Below, in pieces: positions 20,332-48,259 of a stretch of 64,000 nt of DNA. A model generated the notes under the pieces. The model was given only the letters and a program-made list of their open reading frames with translations, had not been told where the DNA came from and searched no databases. A program made the translations under genes and the position numbers. The stretch's first letter is position 1; each line of letters begins with the position of its first letter. The stretch is taken from positions 372,001 through 436,000 of the forward strand of contig NZ_JADQDB010000001.1 of the NCBI RefSeq assembly GCF_015694405.1, in the 5' to 3' direction. The DNA is from Pelagibacterium limicola (GTDB lineage Bacteria > Pseudomonadota > Alphaproteobacteria > Rhizobiales > Devosiaceae).

Positions 20332-20347
20332 TTTACCACATGGTCTA
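20332..20347. promoter_or_regulatory. RutR-like operator between uraH and puuE-uraD
   Basis: TTTACCACATGGTCTA matches 12 of the 14 defined positions of the E. coli RutR consensus TTGACCAnnTGGTCAA. It lies 50 bases upstream of the fusion gene ATG and 79 bases upstream of the uraH ATG. A -10-like TACAAT lies downstream on the plus strand. Binding by the RutR homologue at 42077-42715 is inference. Confidence 0.6.
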
Positions 20348-25473: not shown

Positions 25474-25964
25474 GCCGGACGATCCTCGTCGAATCGCTGA
25501 CCCGGGAAGCCTTCGCTCCCTTCGGGCAGGTGCTGACCACTGAAGGCGCGCACCACTTCTCCATCAACGACGGCATGACCGAGCGTTTCCACGACCTTGC
25601 CGATGTCGAAATCGGCGGAGAGAAGGCGCGCACGCTCATTTCGATCTTCCGCGGCCAGCCCTACGCTTTGCCCCTGACGCTCAGAATGGTCGAGCGGCAC
25701 CCTTTAGGTTCGCAGGCCTTCATGCCGCTCCACCAAAACCCGTTCCTCGTGACCGTCTGCCCCGACGAGAACGGTAGACCAGGCATCCCCCGCGCCTTCC
25801 TCACCCAGCCGGGCATGGGCGTGAACATCGCCCGCAACACCTGGCACGGCGTCCTCACCGCACTCGAAAACGAAGGCGATTTTCTCGTGGTCGACCGTGG
25901 CGGCGACGGGATTAATCTCGAAGAGCACGTCTTCGATGAGCCCTATACGATCAGGGTTCCCTAG
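25470..25964 (+). CDS. allA: ureidoglycolate lyase
   Basis: A 164-aa AllA-family enzyme that cleaves S-ureidoglycolate to glyoxylate and urea, the last step of this purine route. It begins LVESLTREAFAPFGQVL, and contains FRGQPYALPLTLRMVERHPLG, split here by length, and SQAFMPL, then PGMGVNIARNTWHGVLTAL. The ATG at 25470 overlaps the stop of allE (ATGA), so the two are coupled. Its TAG stop and the stop of the convergent molybdoenzyme gene share the same CTAG at 25961-25964. The glyoxylate can be used by malate synthase G at 10217-12373. Confidence 0.93.
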   Translation: MSRTILVESLTREAFAPFGQVLTTEGAHHFSINDGMTERFHDLADVEIGGEKARTLISIFRGQPYALPLTLRMVERHPLGSQAFMPLHQNPFLVTVCPDENGRPGIPRAFLTQPGMGVNIARNTWHGVLTALENEGDFLVVDRGGDGINLEEHVFDEPYTIRVP

Positions 25965-26749
25965 ATCCCCGCATACCAGTCATAGCCGTGGTCTTCCCAG
26001 TACCCGCCCTTGCCGCCGTGCAAGTGGCTGAAACTCTCGACCAGTTCGATGCGTGAGATATATTTGGCCATCTTGTAACCTAGCTGGCGCTCGACCCTCA
26101 GGCGCAACGGAGCCCCGTTCTCGACCGGCAGCGTGGCATCATTCATGCCGTAGGCGAGGATCGTCTGAGGATGGTAGGCATCGATCATGTCGATGCTCTC
26201 ATAGTAGGGCCGGCCCGAAGCCCCGCTCGCATAAATGTCAAAGCAATGAAACACCGCATAGCGCGCCGTCGCCTGAGGTCTCACCTCGGCCAGGACGTGC
26301 GCCAGCGGCACCCCGGTCCATTTGGCGATGCAGCTCCATCCCTCGACGCAGTCATGGCGCGTGATCTGAGTGCGCGAAGGCATGTTCCGCAGTTCATCGA
26401 GCGACCAGCTTTGCGGCGCTTCGCATAGCCCGCCGACTTCCAGCTTATAAAGAGCGAAATCGCTCTGGCGCAGGAACATGTATTCCATTGAATTGGGATC
26501 GGTGGAGCCGTTGGGCCGCATCCCCTGCCGGATTTCGCTTTCCGCAAATTCCCGCGCCAGAGCCGCCCGCCCGAGTACCATGCGCTGTGCCCGAAAAGTC
26601 AGCTCATTGGCTCCGGCCATGAACCCGCGCACCGGACTGGCCGGCGCAACAGCCGCGTCGAACACATCGCATCCTGCCAGCGGAGCACTCGCCAGCCCCG
26701 CAGCCGACACAGTGAGGAATTTGCGGCGGTCGAGAACGAATTTCGTCAT
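25961..26749 (-). CDS. Tat-exported molybdopterin-dependent oxidoreductase (YedY/sulfite oxidase fold)
   Basis: A 262-aa protein with a twin-arginine signal (LDRRKFLTVSAAG, then SAPLAGC, possibly also lipidated) and an oxidoreductase molybdopterin domain. The likely Mo-ligand cysteine is in HDCVEGWSC, followed by KWTGVPLAHVL. Later segments (GMNDATLPVENGAPLRLRVE; GYKMAKYISRIELV) match the MsrP/YedY-like family. Its ATG overlaps the stop of the cytochrome b gene (ATGA), so the two form one redox unit: substrate reduction or oxidation in the periplasm with electrons exchanged through the cytochrome. Substrate unknown. MsrP itself repairs methionine sulfoxide, but identity is not established here. 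Confidence 0.85.
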   Translation of the reverse strand: MTKFVLDRRKFLTVSAAGLASAPLAGCDVFDAAVAPASPVRGFMAGANELTFRAQRMVLGRAALAREFAESEIRQGMRPNGSTDPNSMEYMFLRQSDFALYKLEVGGLCEAPQSWSLDELRNMPSRTQITRHDCVEGWSCIAKWTGVPLAHVLAEVRPQATARYAVFHCFDIYASGASGRPYYESIDMIDAYHPQTILAYGMNDATLPVENGAPLRLRVERQLGYKMAKYISRIELVESFSHLHGGKGGYWEDHGYDWYAGI

Positions 26750-27606
26750 TTGCCGCCCTCCCGGGCGTCTATCCGGTATTTGCCGGTAATCATCGAACGC
26801 ATCGTGTTGATCGGTCCCGCAAGCAACACCATGACGACATGGAGGACGAAAAAGCCGACCAGCAAAACCATGACGGCGAAATGAATCGTCCGCGCCGTTT
26901 GTCGCCCTCCAAATATGTCAATGAGCCACGGCCAGGCCGCATTGATTCCCGGCGACATCGCAAGCCCGGTGAGGACGATGAGCGGAAACAGCACCAGCAG
27001 AACGACAGCATAAGCCAGCTTTTGAAGCGGGGAATAAGCGCGTTTGCGTGGAAACCGGAAGCGCGCATGTGAAGCAACGTCTCCGGGCAACCCTCTGATA
27101 TCGGCTCCAAGCGGAACGATATCGCGCCGCAGGTGCCCGTTGATCAGGCTCGCGATGAACCAGACAAGCATGGTGCCCACCAAAACCCAACCGAAGAAGA
27201 AATGGACCACCCTCCCCGTCGCGAGATCCTGATAAGATGGTATCGTTACCGATGCGGGGAACGCTCGCACCCGCCGTCCCAGCGGCTCATCCTCGCTGCC
27301 GCTGAACCCGAGAACGCCGGTGGTATCGAATGTCCGCCCCCAGATCGTCGTGATCCCGGCAATCCCGCCATCAGGGCGGCGCTCGGCGCGGATCGAGAGC
27401 ACCGAATTGTTATATTCGAACCCCGACTCCTGTCCGATGTAGAGGCTCGGATGGGCATTGAAAATCTGCAGCCCGCTCAACAGCAGGAAAAACAGGCACG
27501 CCGCCCATATCCAATGGGTGACGCGAGTCCATGCCGACTGGCGCCGTACAAGCTCGCCCCTAGGGTGCAATGCCCCGGGCGTCCCGCTCTCATCTGCGGC
27601 AGTCAT
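26746..27606 (-). CDS. membrane cytochrome b (b561/HupC-like) partner of the molybdoenzyme
   Basis: A 286-aa integral membrane protein with four or five hydrophobic helices and conserved histidines suitable for b-heme ligation (RVTHWIWAACLFF; GRVVHFFFGWVLVG; ARTIHFAVMVLLVGFFVLHV). An extra periplasmic loop lies between helices 1 and 2 (residues ~50-125), as in thiosulfate reductase-type cytochromes. It probably connects quinol to the Tat-exported molybdoenzyme encoded next (ATGA overlap). Its start lies 86 bases from a perfect RutR-box sequence. Confidence 0.86.
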   Translation of the reverse strand: MTAADESGTPGALHPRGELVRRQSAWTRVTHWIWAACLFFLLLSGLQIFNAHPSLYIGQESGFEYNNSVLSIRAERRPDGGIAGITTIWGRTFDTTGVLGFSGSEDEPLGRRVRAFPASVTIPSYQDLATGRVVHFFFGWVLVGTMLVWFIASLINGHLRRDIVPLGADIRGLPGDVASHARFRFPRKRAYSPLQKLAYAVVLLVLFPLIVLTGLAMSPGINAAWPWLIDIFGGRQTARTIHFAVMVLLVGFFVLHVVMVLLAGPINTMRSMITGKYRIDAREGGK

Positions 27607-27691
27607 ACGCGTTCCTCCGATCCGTGCCGATCATCACGCATTTCATCGGGTTTTCTACACTCTTCACGCAGAATTGCCCCGTTGTCACAAA

Positions 27692-27707
27692 TTGACCACA
27701 TGGTCAA
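27692..27707. promoter_or_regulatory. perfect RutR consensus box between redox operon and 5'-nucleotidase
   Basis: TTGACCACATGGTCAA matches all 14 defined bases of TTGACCAnnTGGTCAA. It is 86 bases upstream of the cytochrome b ATG (minus) and 186 bases upstream of the 5'-nucleotidase ATG (plus), in a 286-bp divergent region in which nothing else was recognised. Confidence 0.7.
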
Positions 27708-27892
27708 AATTTTGTCTTTCCACCTTCGCCGTTCTGCTGTTTACTTCTCCGGTCTTTAAAGAGCGAACCGACAGTGGGCGGAACCGATCGGCCCTGTCAA
27801 AAAACTGACGCCGCAAACGGGACAGTATGGCGCCGGCCTTGCCGACGAGTCGCAGGCTGCGGGACGGGCCAGAATCAATCAAGGAGAACATC

Positions 27893-29569
27893 ATGCTCAT
27901 CAAACATAAGGCAGGGTTGCTGGATTCAAGCGCGCTGAACATGGATCGGCGTCGCTTCATCCAGGTAGCCGGCGCATCGATGGCCGTCGCGGGGGCCGGC
28001 GTTTTCACCATGACGTCCGCGCAGGCGAATGGCGGCAATTTCCGCCTCAATATCCTGCACATCAATGATATGCACAGCCGCATCCAGGAAATCAGCGGCT
28101 CGGACGCCACCTGCTCGCCCACAGCCTCGGAAGAGGGGAACTGCTTTGGCGGCGCCGCGCGTCTCGCCACCGCCATCCGCGACCGCCGCGCCGAATTGGA
28201 GGCGGAAGGCGCACCCGTCCTGACGCTCGATGCCGGCGACCAGTCGCAGGGCACGCTGTTCTACACGACCTATCGCGGCAAGGCCGAAATCGAAATGATG
28301 AACATGATCGGTTTCGATGGCATGACGCTGGGCAACCACGAGTTCAATCACGGTCCCGATGAACTGGCAGCAATGCTGGCGGAAGCCGATTTCCCGATTG
28401 TCGCCGGCAATGTCCGCGCACCCGCCGACCATCCGCTGGCCGATCTCGTCAAGGATCATCTTATCCTCGAAGTTGGCGGCGAACGCGTCGGCATCCTCGG
28501 CGTTACGACGCCCGATACCGCTTTCCTGTCCTCTCCCGGCCCCGTCACCTTCGATGACGAGATCGCACACCTGAACGAAGCCGTCGGCCGCTTACAGGCG
28601 GAAGGCGTCAACAAGATCGTGTTGTTGAGCCATGTGGGCTTTGTGCGCGATCAGGAAATCGCCGCCGAGGTCGATGGCCTTTCGGTCATCATCGGCGGGC
28701 ATAGTCACACGCTGCTCTCCAACACCGTCGAGGGCACCCCCGACTACGCGACGCTCATCGAAAGCCCCTCGGGCCGCGCCGTACCTATCGTTCAGGCATA
28801 CGCCTTCTCGCGTTATCTCGGAGATCTTGAACTGAACTTCGACGCCGACGGCGCCGTGGTTTCGGCAACGGGCGACACCGTCCTGCTCGATGCCTCTTTC
28901 GAGCCCGCCGCCGACGTCGAAGTGCGGATCGCTGCGCTGGCTGGCCCGATCGAGGAGCTCATTCGTACCCCGGTTGCAGACATCTCTGCGCCCATCGACG
29001 GCAGCCGCGAAAGCTGCCGCACGATGGAATGCGAGATGGGCAACACGGTAACCGATGCCATGCTCGCCGAAGTCGCCAACCAGGACATCACGATTGCCCT
29101 GACCAATGGCGGCGGCCTACGCGCGTCGCTTGAAGAAGGCACCGTTACGCTGGGCGATGTACTGACCGTCCTGCCCTTCCAGAACACACTCTATACGCTC
29201 CGTGTGCCGGGCTCGGCGATCATCGCAGCGCTTGAGCATGGCGTGAACGGTATCGAGGAAGGCGCCGGTCGCTTCCCGCAGGTCGCCGGTCTGCGCTTCA
29301 ACCTCGATCCCTCCGCTGCCCCCAACGGTGGCCGCGTTTCGGATGTCGAGATCCGCTCGGGCGACGAATGGATGCCTATCGATCCCGACGCGACGTACGG
29401 CCTCGTCACCAACAACTTCATGGCCGCAGGCGGCGATGGCTACAGCATGCTCTCCAGCGAGGGCACCGATGGTTACGACACCGCCATCGATCTCGCAGAA
29501 GTGCTGGCCCGTTACATCACCGACAACGAGCCCTTCGCTCCGGTCATCGACGGACGCATCAATCAGTAG
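27893..29569 (+). CDS. Tat-exported 5'-nucleotidase / 2',3'-cyclic nucleotide phosphodiesterase family
   Basis: A 558-aa periplasmic metallophosphoesterase. The twin-arginine signal is NMDRRRFIQVAGASMAVAG. Metal-binding motifs are LHINDMHSR, LDAGDQSQGT, TLGNHEFNHG and GGHSHTLL, and the C-terminal 5'-nucleotidase domain contains NGGGLRASLEEG and VLPFQNTLYTLRVPGS. It releases phosphate and nucleosides from external nucleotides. Start at ATG 27893 with AAGGAGA upstream; the longer frame from 27827 lacks this. Placed among purine and pyrimidine catabolic genes and next to a RutR-type box, it could be the scavenging entry point. A terminator follows. Confidence 0.92.
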   Translation: MLIKHKAGLLDSSALNMDRRRFIQVAGASMAVAGAGVFTMTSAQANGGNFRLNILHINDMHSRIQEISGSDATCSPTASEEGNCFGGAARLATAIRDRRAELEAEGAPVLTLDAGDQSQGTLFYTTYRGKAEIEMMNMIGFDGMTLGNHEFNHGPDELAAMLAEADFPIVAGNVRAPADHPLADLVKDHLILEVGGERVGILGVTTPDTAFLSSPGPVTFDDEIAHLNEAVGRLQAEGVNKIVLLSHVGFVRDQEIAAEVDGLSVIIGGHSHTLLSNTVEGTPDYATLIESPSGRAVPIVQAYAFSRYLGDLELNFDADGAVVSATGDTVLLDASFEPAADVEVRIAALAGPIEELIRTPVADISAPIDGSRESCRTMECEMGNTVTDAMLAEVANQDITIALTNGGGLRASLEEGTVTLGDVLTVLPFQNTLYTLRVPGSAIIAALEHGVNGIEEGAGRFPQVAGLRFNLDPSAAPNGGRVSDVEIRSGDEWMPIDPDATYGLVTNNFMAAGGDGYSMLSSEGTDGYDTAIDLAEVLARYITDNEPFAPVIDGRINQ

Positions 29570-35262: not shown

Positions 35263-35642
35263 CAGCACCTGTCCACCGCGCCCCATTGCAGCCCATCGGC
35301 GTCATAAACATCATAACCGTCGGCACGCTCGTGGCTTTTGACAACCCTCATCAGCGAAACCGTCAGTTCCACTTCACCCTCGTGAGCACAGATTGCAGTT
35401 ATGGCATGTCCCATATTTGTAAGCGGCGACACGGACGCAAATTCGCAATAGGTCGCGTAGGTCTCATAAGCCTGCGGCGTCAGCAACTTCACATCGTCCG
35501 CCTCGGCAATGCCTTCGACTGCAAAGCTGCACCCGGCCGCATTCCCGTAATCGACCTCTATCCAATCCGTCTGCGCGAATGCGGGTGATGTCGCAGCAAT
35601 TGCCGCCACCGCCAAACCCCATGCCCATCGCCCCACCTTCAT
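35262..35642 (-). CDS. small secreted cysteine-containing protein embedded in the pyrimidine operon
   Basis: A 126-aa protein not recognised as a known family. The signal peptide (MKVGRWAWGLAVAAIAATSP, cleavage near AFAQ) leaves a mature domain of ~103 residues with four cysteines (AGCSF, TYCEF, AICAH and the C-terminal DRC), which could form two disulfides in the periplasm. It is locked into the operon on both sides: its ATG overlaps the dihydropyrimidinase stop (ATGA) and its stop overlaps the ATPase start (TGATG). That implies a role linked to pyrimidine use or to the transporter, but none is known. Confidence 0.8.
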   Translation of the reverse strand: MKVGRWAWGLAVAAIAATSPAFAQTDWIEVDYGNAAGCSFAVEGIAEADDVKLLTPQAYETYATYCEFASVSPLTNMGHAITAICAHEGEVELTVSLMRVVKSHERADGYDVYDADGLQWGAVDRC

Positions 35643-37090
35643 ACCCCCGTCGCCGGAATCCCCATCCGCTGGACCTTACGCGGGGCGGTGATCTCCTTCC
35701 ATTGCGACAAAGCGCGATTCACAGGCATGTTGGGCTCACGCGCCACGAATTTCCCGTGACCCGGCTCATGCTTCATCGTGGATTCCTCCACCGACACCTT
35801 GCCGCGCGCCATAACGAAGCGCGGAAGGCCTTCGACCTCGACACCTTCAAAAACATTGTAGTCGATTGCCGATTGCTGCGCGCTGGCCGAGATCGTCTTT
35901 TTCCGCTTGGGATCCCACACGACGATATCGGCATCGGCGCCCTCAAGGATCGCCCCTTTCCTGGGGTAGCAATTGAGAATCTTGGCGATGTTGGTCGAGG
36001 TTACGGCAACGAACTCGTTCATCGTCAGACGGCCGGTATTGACCCCCTTGGTCCACAACACTGGCATCCGGTCCTCGAGCCCGCCTGTCCCGTTCGGGAT
36101 TTTGGCGAAATTGCCGACCCCGAACCGCTTCTGTTCCGTCGTGAAGGCGCAATGGTCTGTCGCCACCACCTGCAAGGAGCCCGATGCCAGCCCGGCCCAG
36201 AGCGAATCCTGATGGAGCTTGTTGCGGAAGGGTGGGCTCATCACGCGCCGTGCGGCATGGTCCCAGTCAGGATGTGCATATTCGCTCTCGTCGAGCACGA
36301 GGTGCTGGATCAGCGGCTCGCCGTAAACCCGCATCCCCTTGGCCCGCGCGCGCCGGATCGCCTCATGCGCCTGCTCACAGGATGTGTGCACCACATAAAG
36401 CGGCACCCCCGCCATATCGGCAATCATGATCGCCCGATTGGTCGCCTCGCCCTCGACTTCCGGGGGGCGCGAATAGGCGTGGGCTTCCGGCCCGTTATTG
36501 CCAGCATCGAGCAGCTTCTGCGTCAATTGCGCGACAACGTCGCCATTCTCGGCATGGACGAGCGGCAGCGCACCCAACTCGGCGCAGCGCTGGAACGACG
36601 AATACATCTCGTCGTCATCCACCATCAGCGCCCCCTTATAGGCCATGAAGTGCTTGAAACTCGTGATCCCGCGCTTGACGGTCTCCTCCATCTCCCGCCA
36701 CACCTGCTCGCCCCACCAGGTGATCGCCATGTGGTAGGAATAATCGCAGGAGGCCTTGCCGACCTTGTTGTCCCACATCGAGAGAGCTTCGAGGAGCGAC
36801 TGGCCGGGGCTGGGCAGGCAGAAATCCACCACCATCGTCGTCCCACCCGAAAGCGCGGCCCGCGTCCCGCTCTCGAAATCGTCGGACGAATAGGTGCCCA
36901 TGAACGGCATCTCGAGATGCGTATGCGGATCGATCCCGCCGGGCATGACATAGCAGCCGGAGGCATCGAGGGTCGTATCGCCCGAGAGCTTCTGGCCGAT
37001 CTCTACAATCGTCTCGCCCTCGACTTTGACATCGGCCTTGTAGGTCAGGTCGGCGGTTACGATGGTGCCGCCCTTTATGACTGTACTCAT
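35639..37090 (-). CDS. pydB: dihydropyrimidinase (D-hydantoinase)
   Basis: A 483-aa amidohydrolase that opens dihydrouracil or dihydrothymine to the N-carbamoyl-beta-amino acid. Motifs are PGGIDPHTHLEMPF (HxH), TSFKHFMAYKGALMV with the lysine that is carbamylated to bridge the metals, LVHAENGDVVA, YVVHTSCEQAHEAI, and VATDHCAFTTEQK with the catalytic Asp. The ATG at 37090 has AGAGGGG upstream. It is the second enzyme of the reductive pathway, between the LysE-type gene and the small secreted protein gene. Confidence 0.95.
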   Translation of the reverse strand: MSTVIKGGTIVTADLTYKADVKVEGETIVEIGQKLSGDTTLDASGCYVMPGGIDPHTHLEMPFMGTYSSDDFESGTRAALSGGTTMVVDFCLPSPGQSLLEALSMWDNKVGKASCDYSYHMAITWWGEQVWREMEETVKRGITSFKHFMAYKGALMVDDDEMYSSFQRCAELGALPLVHAENGDVVAQLTQKLLDAGNNGPEAHAYSRPPEVEGEATNRAIMIADMAGVPLYVVHTSCEQAHEAIRRARAKGMRVYGEPLIQHLVLDESEYAHPDWDHAARRVMSPPFRNKLHQDSLWAGLASGSLQVVATDHCAFTTEQKRFGVGNFAKIPNGTGGLEDRMPVLWTKGVNTGRLTMNEFVAVTSTNIAKILNCYPRKGAILEGADADIVVWDPKRKKTISASAQQSAIDYNVFEGVEVEGLPRFVMARGKVSVEESTMKHEPGHGKFVAREPNMPVNRALSQWKEITAPRKVQRMGIPATGV

Positions 37091-37149
37091 GGTCAATCCC
37101 CTCTCGATTTCGCCCGGCTGAAATCACCGCCGCGGCGCGACAAATCCAT

Positions 37150-37785
37150 TCAGCGCTGCAACGTTGCCAGCTTGGCCCCGAACCCGATCAGCACCACGCC
37201 CGTCACCCCCTTGAGCCAACGCCGCACTGCCCCGCTTCGCACGATCGTTCCCACGCGCGCGATAACGGCGATCATGATGCCGAACCAGACCAGATTGATG
37301 AGCGAATGGACCAGCACCAGAACGAAGGTATGCTGCGCATCGAACGCTCCTACCGGGACAAATTGAGGGAACGCAGCGAGGTAGAACATCGAGACCTTCG
37401 GGTTCAGCAGGTTGGTCAGCATCCCCTCGCCGAAGGCGATGGTAAGCCCCCGCTTGCGCCGTGCAGGCGTCACCGCTTCCACCTTCCCACCTCGCCACGC
37501 CTCGCGCAGCGACTTGAAACCGAGCCAGCACAGATATGCCGCCCCGGCCAGCTTGAATGCGGTGAAAAGGTCTGCCGACGTCGCCAAAATAAGCGAGCCA
37601 CCCAGCAGCGCGAAAACCCAGTGGCAATAGAAAGCAACCATGAACCCGGCGATATTGGCGAACCCCGCCAACGCTCCCGATGTCGGCACTGTCTTCGCGA
37701 TCAAAACCCCGTTCGGCCCTGGCGAGATCACCAGTAGTCCGGCCACGATGGCAAAGGACAGAACCTGTGACACGTCGAAAGTCAC
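37150..37785 (-). CDS. LysE/RhtB-family amino acid exporter
   Basis: A 211-aa membrane protein with six predicted helices and the LysE signature VISPGPNGVLIAKTV near the N-terminus, then FKLAGAAYLCWLGFKSLREA and NLLNPKVSMFYLAAFPQFV. It starts with GTG at 37785, which overlaps the pydC stop as GTGA, so a Met start need not be sought. Within an operon producing beta-alanine and beta-aminoisobutyrate, it may export an excess of these amino acids (inference). Confidence 0.9.
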   Translation of the reverse strand: MTFDVSQVLSFAIVAGLLVISPGPNGVLIAKTVPTSGALAGFANIAGFMVAFYCHWVFALLGGSLILATSADLFTAFKLAGAAYLCWLGFKSLREAWRGGKVEAVTPARRKRGLTIAFGEGMLTNLLNPKVSMFYLAAFPQFVPVGAFDAQHTFVLVLVHSLINLVWFGIMIAVIARVGTIVRSGAVRRWLKGVTGVVLIGFGAKLATLQR

Positions 37786-39032
37786 CCTACGATCTCCGCC
37801 GTCTCCAGCACCGCGTGCAGCAGCACGTCGGCGCCAGCCGTTGCCCAGGCCTTTGTGATCTCTTCGGCCTCGTTGTGCGAAAGCCCATCGACACAGGGAC
37901 ACATGACCATCGCCGTCGGTGCGACCCGGTTGATCCAGCACGCATCGTGCCCCGCCCCCGAAACGATATCGCGGTGCGAGTAGCCCAGCCGCTCCGCCGC
38001 ATTGCGCACCGCGGCCACACAATCGGGGTCGAACGCAGGAGGGTCGAATTGCCCGACGATCTGGCTGGAAAATTCCACGCCCAGCGCCTCGCAGAGCTTG
38101 GGTGCCTTCTCCTCGAGCTCGGCGACCATTGCATTGAGTGTATCGATGATGTGCGAGCGGAAATCGATGGTGAACACCACCTTGCCCGGGATGATGTTGC
38201 GGGAATTGGGATAAACGTCGACATGCCCGATGGCGCCCACCGCATTGGGCTGATGCTTCATGGCAATCTCGTGGACAAGCTCGGTCACCTGCGCCAGCCC
38301 GCGCCCGGCATTCCTGCGCATGGGCATCGGGGTGGAGCCGGTGTGGCTTTCCTTGCCGGTGACCGTGCATTCGATCCAGCGCAGCCCCTGCCCGTGCGTG
38401 ACAACACCGATATCCTTGCCTTCGGCCTCAAGGATCGGTCCCTGCTCGATATGAAGCTCGAAGAACGCCTTCATCTTTCGCGCGCCGACCTCTTCATCGC
38501 CCAGCCAGCCGATGCGCTTCAACTCATCCCCGAATTTCAGCCCCTTGGCATCCACCCGGTCATAGGCCCAGTCGAGTTCATGCACGCCCGCAAACACTCC
38601 CGACGCCAACATGGCCGGAGCAAAGCGCGTGCCTTCCTCATTGGTCCAGTTGGTGACAACGATAGGGTGTTTTGTCTTTATGCCAAGGTCATTGAGCGTG
38701 CGGACCAGTTCCAGCCCACCCAGCACACCGAGCACGCCATCGTATTTCCCGCCCGTCGGCTGCGTATCGAGATGGCTCCCGACATAGACAGGCAGGGCGT
38801 CCGGATCAGTCCCTTCGCGACGGGCAAACATGGTGCCCATCTTGTCGACACCCATCGTCAGGCCAGCCTCGTCGCACCAGCGTTTGAACAGGTGGCGCCC
38901 CTCGCTGTCCGCATCGGTCACCGTCTGGCGATTATTGCCACCGGCAACGCCCGGACCAACCTGCGCCATCTCCATGAGGGCATCCCATAGCCGGTCCCCG
39001 TTGATCCTGAGATTGTCACCGAGTTTGGCCAT
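37782..39032 (-). CDS. pydC: beta-ureidopropionase / allantoate amidohydrolase family (M20) hydrolase
   Basis: A 416-aa Zn-dependent amidase (hydantoinase/carbamoylase family) that hydrolyses N-carbamoyl-beta-alanine to beta-alanine, CO2 and ammonia. Metal ligands lie in VGSHLDTQPTGGKYDG, NEEGTRFAP, ELHIEQGP and the C-terminal GLSHNEAEEI; the dimerisation domain includes GKESHTGSTPMPMRRNAG. The same family contains allantoate amidohydrolase (AllC), a step missing from the purine set in this window, so it might serve both. It lies between mmsA and the LysE gene in the pyrimidine operon, which favours PydC as the main role. Confidence 0.9.
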   Translation of the reverse strand: MAKLGDNLRINGDRLWDALMEMAQVGPGVAGGNNRQTVTDADSEGRHLFKRWCDEAGLTMGVDKMGTMFARREGTDPDALPVYVGSHLDTQPTGGKYDGVLGVLGGLELVRTLNDLGIKTKHPIVVTNWTNEEGTRFAPAMLASGVFAGVHELDWAYDRVDAKGLKFGDELKRIGWLGDEEVGARKMKAFFELHIEQGPILEAEGKDIGVVTHGQGLRWIECTVTGKESHTGSTPMPMRRNAGRGLAQVTELVHEIAMKHQPNAVGAIGHVDVYPNSRNIIPGKVVFTIDFRSHIIDTLNAMVAELEEKAPKLCEALGVEFSSQIVGQFDPPAFDPDCVAAVRNAAERLGYSHRDIVSGAGHDACWINRVAPTAMVMCPCVDGLSHNEAEEITKAWATAGADVLLHAVLETAEIVG

Positions 39033-41933: not shown

Positions 41934-41977
41934 TTGACCGATTGGAAAAATTCTAGCACTCTGGATGCAAGGTTCAA
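41934..41977 (-). promoter_or_regulatory. promoter of the pyrimidine operon with RutR-like box
   Basis: On the minus strand, TTGAAC (41972-41977) and TAGAAT (41950-41955) are separated by 16 bases. Directly downstream is a RutR-like box at 41934-41949, TTGACCGATTGGAAAA on the plus strand, which matches 11 of 14 consensus positions. A repressor there would block transcription start. The box is 68 bases from the aminotransferase ATG. Confidence 0.65.
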
Positions 41978-42076: not shown

Positions 42077-42715
42077 ATGGGCACAGATACCGACACCGCA
42101 AAGCCGGCCACCCGCATCCAGCGCGAAAAGCAGGAAGCGATCCTGGAAGCCGCGCTCGATGTGTTTTCCCAATACGGTTTTCGCGGGTCGACCATCGATC
42201 AGATTGCCGAGGCGGCGGGGATGTCCAAGCCCAATCTCCTCTATTATTTCAAGTCCAAGGAAGATATCCACGCGCCTCTCCTGGCGCGGATTCTCGATAC
42301 ATGGCTCCAGCCCTTGCGCGAGCTTGACGCCCATGGCGACCCCCTGCCTGAAATACAGTCCTATATCCGCCGCAAGCTCGAGATGAGCCGCGATTTCCCC
42401 CGCGAAAGCCGCCTCTTTGCCAACGAAATGCTGCGTGGCGCACCGGGCTTTCACGGAGTGCTGCATACCGATCTCAAGAAACTGGTGGACGAGAAGGCCG
42501 AAGTCATCAGAAGCTGGATGGCCCAGGGCAAGATCGTCAAATGCGATCCCTATCACCTGATTTTCTCGATCTGGGCCACCACCCAGCACTACGCCGATTT
42601 CGACATCCAGGTGCGCGCCGTGTTGGGCAAGGAACGGGGCGGCGAAGGCCGTTTCGAGGATGCCGCCCGCTTCCTCGACCAGCTTTTCCTGCATGGGCTC
42701 AAGCCCAAGAACTAG
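42077..42715 (+). CDS. rutR: TetR-family pyrimidine-responsive regulator RutR
   Basis: A 212-aa TetR regulator closely resembling RutR. The HTH region is EAILEAALDVFSQYGFRGST followed by IDQIAEAAGMSKPNLLYYFK. The ligand domain retains RutR-like stretches (YIRRKLEMSRDFPRESRLFA, split from NEMLRGAP; DPYHLIFSIWATTQHYADF). E. coli RutR is released from DNA by uracil or thymine. It is divergent from the pyrimidine operon and likely represses it and itself. GAGGAGG lies about 13 bases before the ATG. The gene abuts the convergent EamA gene at TAGCTA with no gap. Confidence 0.92.
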   Translation: MGTDTDTAKPATRIQREKQEAILEAALDVFSQYGFRGSTIDQIAEAAGMSKPNLLYYFKSKEDIHAPLLARILDTWLQPLRELDAHGDPLPEIQSYIRRKLEMSRDFPRESRLFANEMLRGAPGFHGVLHTDLKKLVDEKAEVIRSWMAQGKIVKCDPYHLIFSIWATTQHYADFDIQVRAVLGKERGGEGRFEDAARFLDQLFLHGLKPKN

Positions 42716-46433: not shown

Positions 46434-46449
46434 TTTATCAATCGGTAAA
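46434..46449. promoter_or_regulatory. RutR-like box upstream of preT-preA
   Basis: TTTATCAATCGGTAAA matches 10 of 14 RutR consensus positions and sits in a larger symmetric stretch, TTTTTTA...TAAAAAA. The core CAATCGGT is shared with the reverse strand of the pyrimidine-operon box at 41934-41949, which supports common recognition. Confidence 0.55.
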
Positions 46450-47317: not shown

Positions 47318-48259
47318 ATGGCGCGCAAGATCATTATCGACACCGACCCCGGACAGGACGATGCCGTCGCCATCCTGCTTGCCCTGGCTTCCCCCGAAGA
47401 AATCCACGTGCTCGGTATCGTGGCCGTCGCGGGCAATGTCGGCCTCGCCCAGAACGCGAAGAACGCTCTCAAGGTCGTCGAGCTTTCGGGTCGCACCGAA
47501 GTCCCCGTTTATGCCGGCTGCCCGCGTCCATTGATGCGCAAGCTCGTCACCGCCGAACACGTTCACGGCCAGACCGGACTCGACGGCCCCGATCTTCCCG
47601 AACCGGCAAAGAAGCTGGAGACGCCTCACGGCGTGGACTTCATCATCGAGACCCTGATGCGCGAACCGGAGAATACGGTAACGCTCTGCGCGCTCGGCCC
47701 GCTCACCAATCTCGGCATGGCACTGGCCAAGGAGCCGCGGATCGCCCCGCGTATCCAGGAAATCGTCCTGATGGGCGGCGCCTATTTCGAGGTCGGCAAC
47801 ATTACGCCCGCTGCCGAATTCAATATCTATGTCGACCCCGAAGCCGCGGCTACCGTTTTCGCCTGTGCCGCGCCGATCGCCATGATGCCGCTCGACGTGA
47901 CGCACCGCATGCTCGCTACGCCTGCGCGCGTCGCCGCCTTCCGGGCCATCGGGAACCGAACGGGCGCCGCGGTCGCCGATATGCTCGGCTTTTCCGAACG
48001 CTTCGACCTTGAAAAATATGGCTGGCAAGGCGCGCCGCTCCACGACCCATGCGTCACCGCATACCTCCTTGCTCCTGAAATCTTTTCAGGCCGCAAATGC
48101 AATGTCGAGATCGAAACCAACAGCGAACTGACCCGAGGCATGACCGTCGCCGACTACTGGCACGTGACAGATCGCCCCCATAACGCCACCTTCATCCGCG
48201 AGGGCAATTCCGATGCGTTTTACGCACTTTTGACCGAACGCCTCGCCCGCCTGCCCTGA
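47318..48259 (+). CDS. inosine/uridine-preferring nucleoside hydrolase
   Basis: A 313-aa enzyme that splits nucleosides into base and ribose. The calcium-binding N-terminal motif is IIIDTDPGQDDAVAILLA, and further active-site segments are NVGLAQNAKNAL, LMGGAYFEVGNITPAAEFNI and the C-terminal LHDPCVTAYLLAPEIF. The ATG at 47318 has GGAGG upstream; a frame from 47267 has none. It could supply free bases to the purine and pyrimidine pathways in this window. It is divergent from rirA and followed 13 bases later by sseA on the same strand. Confidence 0.93.
   Translation: MARKIIIDTDPGQDDAVAILLALASPEEIHVLGIVAVAGNVGLAQNAKNALKVVELSGRTEVPVYAGCPRPLMRKLVTAEHVHGQTGLDGPDLPEPAKKLETPHGVDFIIETLMREPENTVTLCALGPLTNLGMALAKEPRIAPRIQEIVLMGGAYFEVGNITPAAEFNIYVDPEAAATVFACAAPIAMMPLDVTHRMLATPARVAAFRAIGNRTGAAVADMLGFSERFDLEKYGWQGAPLHDPCVTAYLLAPEIFSGRKCNVEIETNSELTRGMTVADYWHVTDRPHNATFIREGNSDAFYALLTERLARLP

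Follow-up and report, generated by a model that had tools for sequence, protein, structure and literature searches.

The comparison of related genomes indicates that a RutR-type box lying between two divergent transcription units belongs to the exported 5'-nucleotidase on one side of it, not to the molybdenum redox enzyme on the other. In the reading that we regard as quite probable, the box is the operator of the nucleotidase gene, a RutR homologue would repress from it, uracil would release the repressor so that nucleotidases are induced, and the redox pair would be a bystander. The features of the locus are given below, where the window is the whole stretch of DNA analysed, 64,000 nucleotides in length.

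27692..27707, plus strand: candidate RutR-type operator TTGACCACATGGTCAA, an exact consensus match that is unique in the genome
27893..29569, plus strand: exported 5'-nucleotidase (NUC; Pfam 5_nucleotid_C and Metallophos), the gene that the box is thought to serve
27717..27745, plus strand: candidate NUC promoter, TTTCCA-17-TTTACT, which starts 9 nt past the box
27794..27811, plus strand: Pho-box-like direct repeat CTGTCAAAAAACTGACGC, scoring 11 of 14
26746..27606, minus strand: cytochrome b561-like membrane subunit (CYB; PF01292), judged to be outside the regulon
25961..26749, minus strand: YedY-like molybdoenzyme (MO; PF00174) with a Tat signal and a lipobox-like LAGC, judged to be outside the regulon

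Position and conservation of the box

The sequence TTGACCACATGGTCAA, placed between the start of CYB (26746-27606, minus strand) and the exported 5'-nucleotidase, had been described in the initial annotation as a perfect RutR box at 27692-27707, and this was confirmed: all 14 defined bases of the consensus match. The consensus applied there is the palindrome TTGACCANNTGGTCAA, which we take to be the E. coli RutR box; an E. coli RutR consensus sequence was not found in print. The exact consensus occurs a single time in the genome, which spans 3.47 Mb in 13 contigs and is 99.6% complete; from base composition, 0.0057 exact matches to the 14 bases are expected per genome. We rejected the exact match alone as proof, because counts of the looser palindrome TTGACCNNNNGGTCAA are close to those of a reversed control pattern. 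Exact matches to TTGACCNNNNGGTCAA were found at 22 places in 13 genomes of the genus, compared with 20 for the control, and at one mismatch the window's own genome gave 15 compared with 14. Genome-wide enrichment of the looser palindrome over the control was thus absent in the 13 genus genomes and, at one mismatch, in the own genome, so the significance of the box rests on its conserved position and not on motif counts. The 22 exact places in the genus comprise 11 before NUC, 2 before the gene of a second, CpdB-like nucleotidase and 9 before neither. A single terminator-like stem was called in 27560-27930, where shuffles lead to an expectation of 0.6, and this stem is the box.

Conservation was assessed in a family set of 101 genomes, 78 of which have MO and 83 NUC. 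Upstream regions of 450 nt each were available for NUC in 82 genomes and usable for CYB in 74, and a site was counted when it had at most one mismatch in the 12 half-site bases. Such a site precedes NUC in 39 of 82 genomes (shuffle mean 0.08) and CYB in 6 of 74 (shuffle mean 0.06). The NUC-side sites come from the own genus (12 of 12), the sister genus g16 (26 of 39) and g2 (1 of 1), and none was found before NUC in the other 29 genomes, which belong to 8 genera. The link between the box and the 5'-nucleotidase that the initial annotation had drawn therefore has comparative support, both across the family (39/82) and within the genus (12/12). Eleven of the boxes in the 12 genus genomes having NUC are exact in the half-sites and one has a single mismatch; in genus g6 a two-mismatch site precedes NUC in 5 of 5 genomes. 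Altogether 43 of 82 NUC genes have no site within one mismatch, including 13 of 39 in g16 and 12 of 12 in g12, and 6 of them have a site with two mismatches. A PF08362 protein is present in 97 of the 101 family genomes although many NUC genes lack the box, which counts against the operator reading.

All six CYB-side cases are in the own genus, and they are exactly the genomes in which CYB and NUC are directly divergent and share one intergenic region. The remaining 6 of the 12 genus genomes have CYB 0.8-1.8 kb away from the box, which remains by the nucleotidase; its distance to the start of the NUC match is 177-216 nt in all 12. Outside the genus, no box within one mismatch was found before CYB in any of the 62 readable family genomes. 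A further set of named loci, the best 80 of 591 relatives, 78 of which have CYB, consists partly of the same genomes, that of Pelagibacterium lentulum being counted both here and in the family set (as G035). The box was found in 1 of the 78 CYB upstream regions from these best 80 of 591 relatives, namely in P. lentulum, where NUC is directly divergent; NUC occurs in 12 of the 80 named loci, all of them Devosia or Pelagibacterium records. Because the box is conserved, in register with NUC, and apart from CYB in relatives, we read it as a putative NUC operator. Control of the redox pair was rejected as the main function: the operator was not kept with the pair when its neighbors change, and a CYB-side box is seen only where NUC abuts (6/74 in the family; 1/78 of the named loci). 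The initial annotation had also raised the possibility that RutR acts through the box on the YedY-like enzyme together with its cytochrome b, in which case the enzyme might have a place in nucleobase metabolism. This proposal is not supported, since box and pair lie apart in 6 of the 12 genomes of the genus and the box precedes CYB in 0 of 62 genomes outside the genus. A box serving only the 5'-nucleotidase had been named there as one outcome contradicting the proposal, and it is the outcome at which we arrive, by inference rather than experiment.

The redox pair was considered in its own right. Within the named loci (best 80 of 591), CYB stands beside MO in 78 of 80, the other two being short contigs, and the MO/cytochrome b561 pair is present in many Rhizobiales-type records. 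The DCVEGW motif of MO contains a Cys134 that is invariant in 12 aligned proteins. MO reached 101.8 of 207 bits on the NCBIfam MsrP model, below its cut-off, and passed none of the named sulfite-oxidase-family models (MsrP, SorA, SorT, SoxC) at cut-off. A ureidoglycolate lyase is encoded near MO in 5 of the best 80 of 591 named loci, all Devosia, Pelagibacterium or Cucumibacter; no tie of MO to nucleobases beyond the local neighborhood was seen in the window and the 80 named loci, and no literature joining YedY, cytochrome b561 and molybdenum was found. Alignment of the CYB-side upstream regions revealed little conservation. The stretch TAGGNTCCG, a pattern picked post hoc with the sequences already viewed, precedes CYB in 5 of 12 genus genomes at no more than one mismatch and is not present in the window; it lies 56-75 nt beyond the box in four boxed CYB upstream regions and occurs also in one that has no box. 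Control of the MO/CYB pair by the box is not supported, and the divergent pair is best explained as a bystander. There is no need to assign the molybdoenzyme to nucleobase metabolism because of this box, which removes a tempting but unsupported lead, and once the box is assigned to the nucleotidase little remains of what was surprising in the original reading.

Promoter elements and the presumed regulator

The NUC reading frame opens at 27827, and the likelier start is the ATG at 27893, which is preceded by AAGGAG; a twin-arginine-type signal, DRRRF, is visible in the translation. Past the box, toward NUC, all 12 genus genomes have a hexamer TT[ATG]A[CG]T at 31-32 nt, and 19 of 26 boxed g16 genomes have it at 24 nt; letters beginning with TTTC or TTTT stand 17 nt before the hexamer in 9 of 12 and 19 of 19 cases, respectively. 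The hexamer pattern was picked post hoc, with the alignments already viewed, and a reversed-sequence control yielded 0 of 39. A consensus promoter scan of 27560-27930 returned one plus-strand site, TTGTCA-17-CAAAAT (27682-27710), whose hexamers bracket the box. Directly adjoining the box (27682-27697, L336-L354) is a GTCAYAAA-type element, found before NUC in the own genus and before CpdB in g16. The GTCAY element adjoins the box at 11 of 12 genus NUC sites and 12 of 16 g16 CpdB sites, with corresponding counts of 0 of 27 at g16 NUC sites and 3 of 11 at genus CpdB sites, and together with the box it could form a shared composite element. The NUC protein (27893-29569; compared with L037-L047) shares 84% identity with its P. 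lentulum counterpart and about 48-52% with those of the ten other genus members, which are encoded in the same place with the same box, as if the NUC gene had been replaced while the operator stayed.

The presumed regulator, further candidate sites and a nucleoside hydrolase are located elsewhere in the window as follows; no strand is given for the sites.

42077..42715, plus strand: RutR homologue (TetR family; PF08362, E=2e-52), the presumed regulator
41934..41949: degenerate RutR-type site TTGACCGATTGGAAAA between aptA and rutR, a candidate for autoregulation
20332..20347: RutR-type site TTTACCACATGGTCTA upstream of puuE/OHCU decarboxylase, noted for its conservation in the genus
46434..46449: weak (three-mismatch) RutR-type site TTTATCAATCGGTAAA upstream of pydA, compared across four pydA upstream regions
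47318..48259, plus strand: pyrimidine-type ribonucleoside hydrolase (RihA-like; NCBIfam RihA model, E=5e-98, below cut-off)

The RutR homologue is encoded in the same window, 14 kb from the box. It matched the NCBIfam RutR models with E=3e-73 and 1e-65, both below the cut-offs (246 of 368 bits for TIGR03613 and 221 of 230 bits for PRK15008), so its name is given by homology. A comparison with E. coli RutR structures gave E=3e-59, and in the alignment, read by eye, the DNA-contact residues K52 and K62 and the uracil-contact residues W77, Y97, W167, Q171 and Q179 are identical; the available portion of PMC10891134 describes these contacts for the E. coli protein. PF08362 has one match in each of the 13 genus genomes. 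The text available from PMC6245113 presents unliganded RutR as the DNA-binding form, its binding being abolished by uracil, and gives the contact region of the E. coli protein as 30 bp. With the box at its centre, a 30 bp footprint would extend to about 27714; it would cover the TTGTCA-17-CAAAAT site but fall short of the candidate -35 (27717) by 3 nt, which counts against the operator reading.

We infer that RutR is the binding protein, that it represses, and that uracil is the signal. The RutR homologue would most likely bind the box beside the NUC promoter and repress when uracil is absent. As uracil derived from nucleotides accumulates, RutR would be released and the exported nucleotidase made; the enzyme would then dephosphorylate outside nucleotides to nucleosides, which would pass through uptake and RihA-like hydrolysis to breakdown by the Pyd pathway.

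Further candidate sites and pathway genes

The site between rutR and aptA is present in 13 of 13 genus genomes, as TTGACCGATTGGAAAA in 12 and as TTGACCGAATGGAAAA in one. Upstream of pydA, TTTATCAATCGGTAAA was found in one or the other orientation in all four regions read, those of the window and of L155, L156 and L157. The site before the allantoinase gene puuE is present in each of the 12 genus genomes with puuE, at two mismatches in 11 and at three in one. The sequence TTTACCACATGGTCNA before puuE (20332-20347) is present with hardly any variation in all 12 genus genomes; it might connect purine breakdown with RutR, or another regulator might use it. A site upstream of a nucleoside ABC transporter, TTTACCRTTTGG (2-3 mismatches), was detected in 8 of 13 genus genomes and is absent from the own genome.

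The second exact TTGACCNNNNGGTCAA of the own genome (L002/L314) lies 129 nt before the CpdB-like gene, whose product passes the cut-off of PRK09420 (2',3'-cyclic-nucleotide phosphodiesterase/3'-nucleotidase) but not that of TIGR01390. In the genus, the CpdB upstream region has TTGACCNNNN followed by GGTCAA (2) or GATAAA (9) in 11 of 11 genomes with the gene. Among the 30 best-matching CpdB loci, which come from 3 genera (the gene is present in 84 family genomes), a site with no more than two mismatches was found within 350 nt upstream in 28, compared with 0 of 30 in a control region.

Also encoded in the window are a xanthine-dehydrogenase-type subunit, an XdhC-type protein, urate oxidase, allantoinase/OHCU decarboxylase, ureidoglycine aminohydrolase, a ureidoglycolate lyase, PydA/PydB-like proteins, AptA, a methylmalonate-semialdehyde-type dehydrogenase, the RihA-like nucleoside hydrolase and the RutR homologue. 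Two long plus-strand ORFs (35579-37366 and 37680-38990) had no Pfam match and an overlapping minus-strand frame (37150-38370) matches LysE, so the gene calls at 35579-38990 need care.

The CpdB-type nucleotidase, rutR/aptA, pydA and puuE probably belong to the same regulon as NUC. The likely RutR regulon of these alphaproteobacteria would thereby be extended to nucleotidases and towards purine breakdown, and this extension predicts that nucleotide scavenging is induced by uracil. A nucleotidase as a RutR target was not found in print among open-licence papers.

Alternative readings and known systems

Where the genes abut, one box in a shared divergent promoter might control both NUC and CYB/MO, the redox pair then being a RutR target there; we consider this very unlikely. 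Six of the 12 genus genomes do have the box 85-180 nt ahead of the start of the CYB match, and the shorter of the two distances in the window is that to the CYB start, 85 nt, the likely NUC start being 185 nt away. However, the box-CYB spacing varies, and the pair stands apart from the box in 6 of 12 genomes, whereas the NUC side is in register. The consensus scan of 27560-27930 detected no minus-strand promoter-like site, TAGGNTCCG occurs with or without the box, so that CYB may have its own promoter away from it, and a box before CYB was seen in none of the 62 family genomes from outside the genus and in 1 of 78 named loci (best 80 of 591). Another possibility concerns the protein that reads the box. 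The rutR and pydA sites are more degenerate than the nucleotidase site, TTGACCGATTGGAAAA differing from the nucleotidase sites in its second half and pydA having only a three-mismatch version, and it is thus possible that another TetR-type protein reads TTGACCNNNNGGTCAA, the likeness to the E. coli RutR consensus being convergent. We hold this to be rather unlikely, given that the sites have a TTGACC/GG core or a near form of it in common, that each genus genome has one PF08362 match, with DNA-contact residues as in E. coli RutR, and that the apparent targets make up one pathway.

It is also conceivable, though unlikely in our estimation, that NUC is mainly a phosphate-starvation (PhoB) gene and that the palindrome is minor or vestigial. 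UshA-type nucleotidases are described as Pi-starvation enzymes in the available text of PMC4415409. Scored with a Pho box criterion of two 11-nt direct repeats, Pho-box-like repeats before NUC reach 12-14 of 14 in 5 of 5 genomes of g6; in the own genus, 9 of 12 genomes score 11 of 14 or higher, compared with about 6% of shuffled upstream regions. A strict GTCAY-N6-GTCAY pattern, for which the reversed control gave 0, lies past the box at 13 of 16 g16 and 3 of 11 own-genus CpdB sites; the relaxed Pho pattern was picked after the sequences had been viewed. Against a PhoB gene, the window match scores 11 of 14, the best matches in the genus stand at differing places, one of them on the other strand, and the strict pattern was found past 0 of 12 genus and 1 of 27 g16 NUC boxes (3 of 5 in g6), whereas all 12 genus genomes have the palindrome, with one base changed at most. 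Considered as the main control of NUC, Pho boxes were strong only in g6. The Pho-box-like repeats suggest a phosphate input, and joint phosphate control is likely in some relatives. A wider proposal, which we offer tentatively and at somewhat less than even chances, is that the family has a compact two-input module for taking apart outside nucleotides, in which two distantly related nucleotidases would each carry a RutR-type uracil operator beside a Pho-box-like repeat, nucleotide scavenging would be set jointly by the supply of pyrimidines and the need for phosphate, and RutR would reach purine breakdown via puuE.

Taking the box as a probable nucleotidase operator, we compared the locus with known systems. 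MO resembles the MsrP (YedY)/sulfite-oxidase family in having the Oxidored_molyb domain and in its CVEGW, which aligned with the CVEAW of the E. coli YedY structure; the Cys of this motif is the Mo ligand in the family. It differs in being below the MsrP, SorA, SorT and SoxC cut-offs and in having a b561-type cytochrome as its partner. The UshA-type nucleotidases of the Pho regulon, as far as the available text of PMC4415409 describes them, are likewise nucleotide phosphohydrolases, and Pho-box-like repeats occur near NUC or CpdB in several relatives; here, in contrast, a candidate RutR-type operator stands beside the promoter. The accessible part of PMC5343134 reports predicted RutR regulons of Proteobacteria, covering 68 genomes in 13 groups with taxon-specific changes of the motif, and combines a TetR-family RutR with pyrimidine catabolism, as here. 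With the E. coli RutR regulon (rutABCDEFG and carAB, in the portions available of PMC6245113 and PMC10891134), the locus has in common a TetR-family regulator with identical DNA- and uracil-contact residues. Also in common are the palindrome, in the form of the consensus used in the initial annotation, and the presence of pyrimidine degradation genes among the apparent targets. Unlike in E. coli, a reductive Pyd-type gene set lies beside rutR here, and nucleotidases and the allantoinase gene are among the apparent targets.
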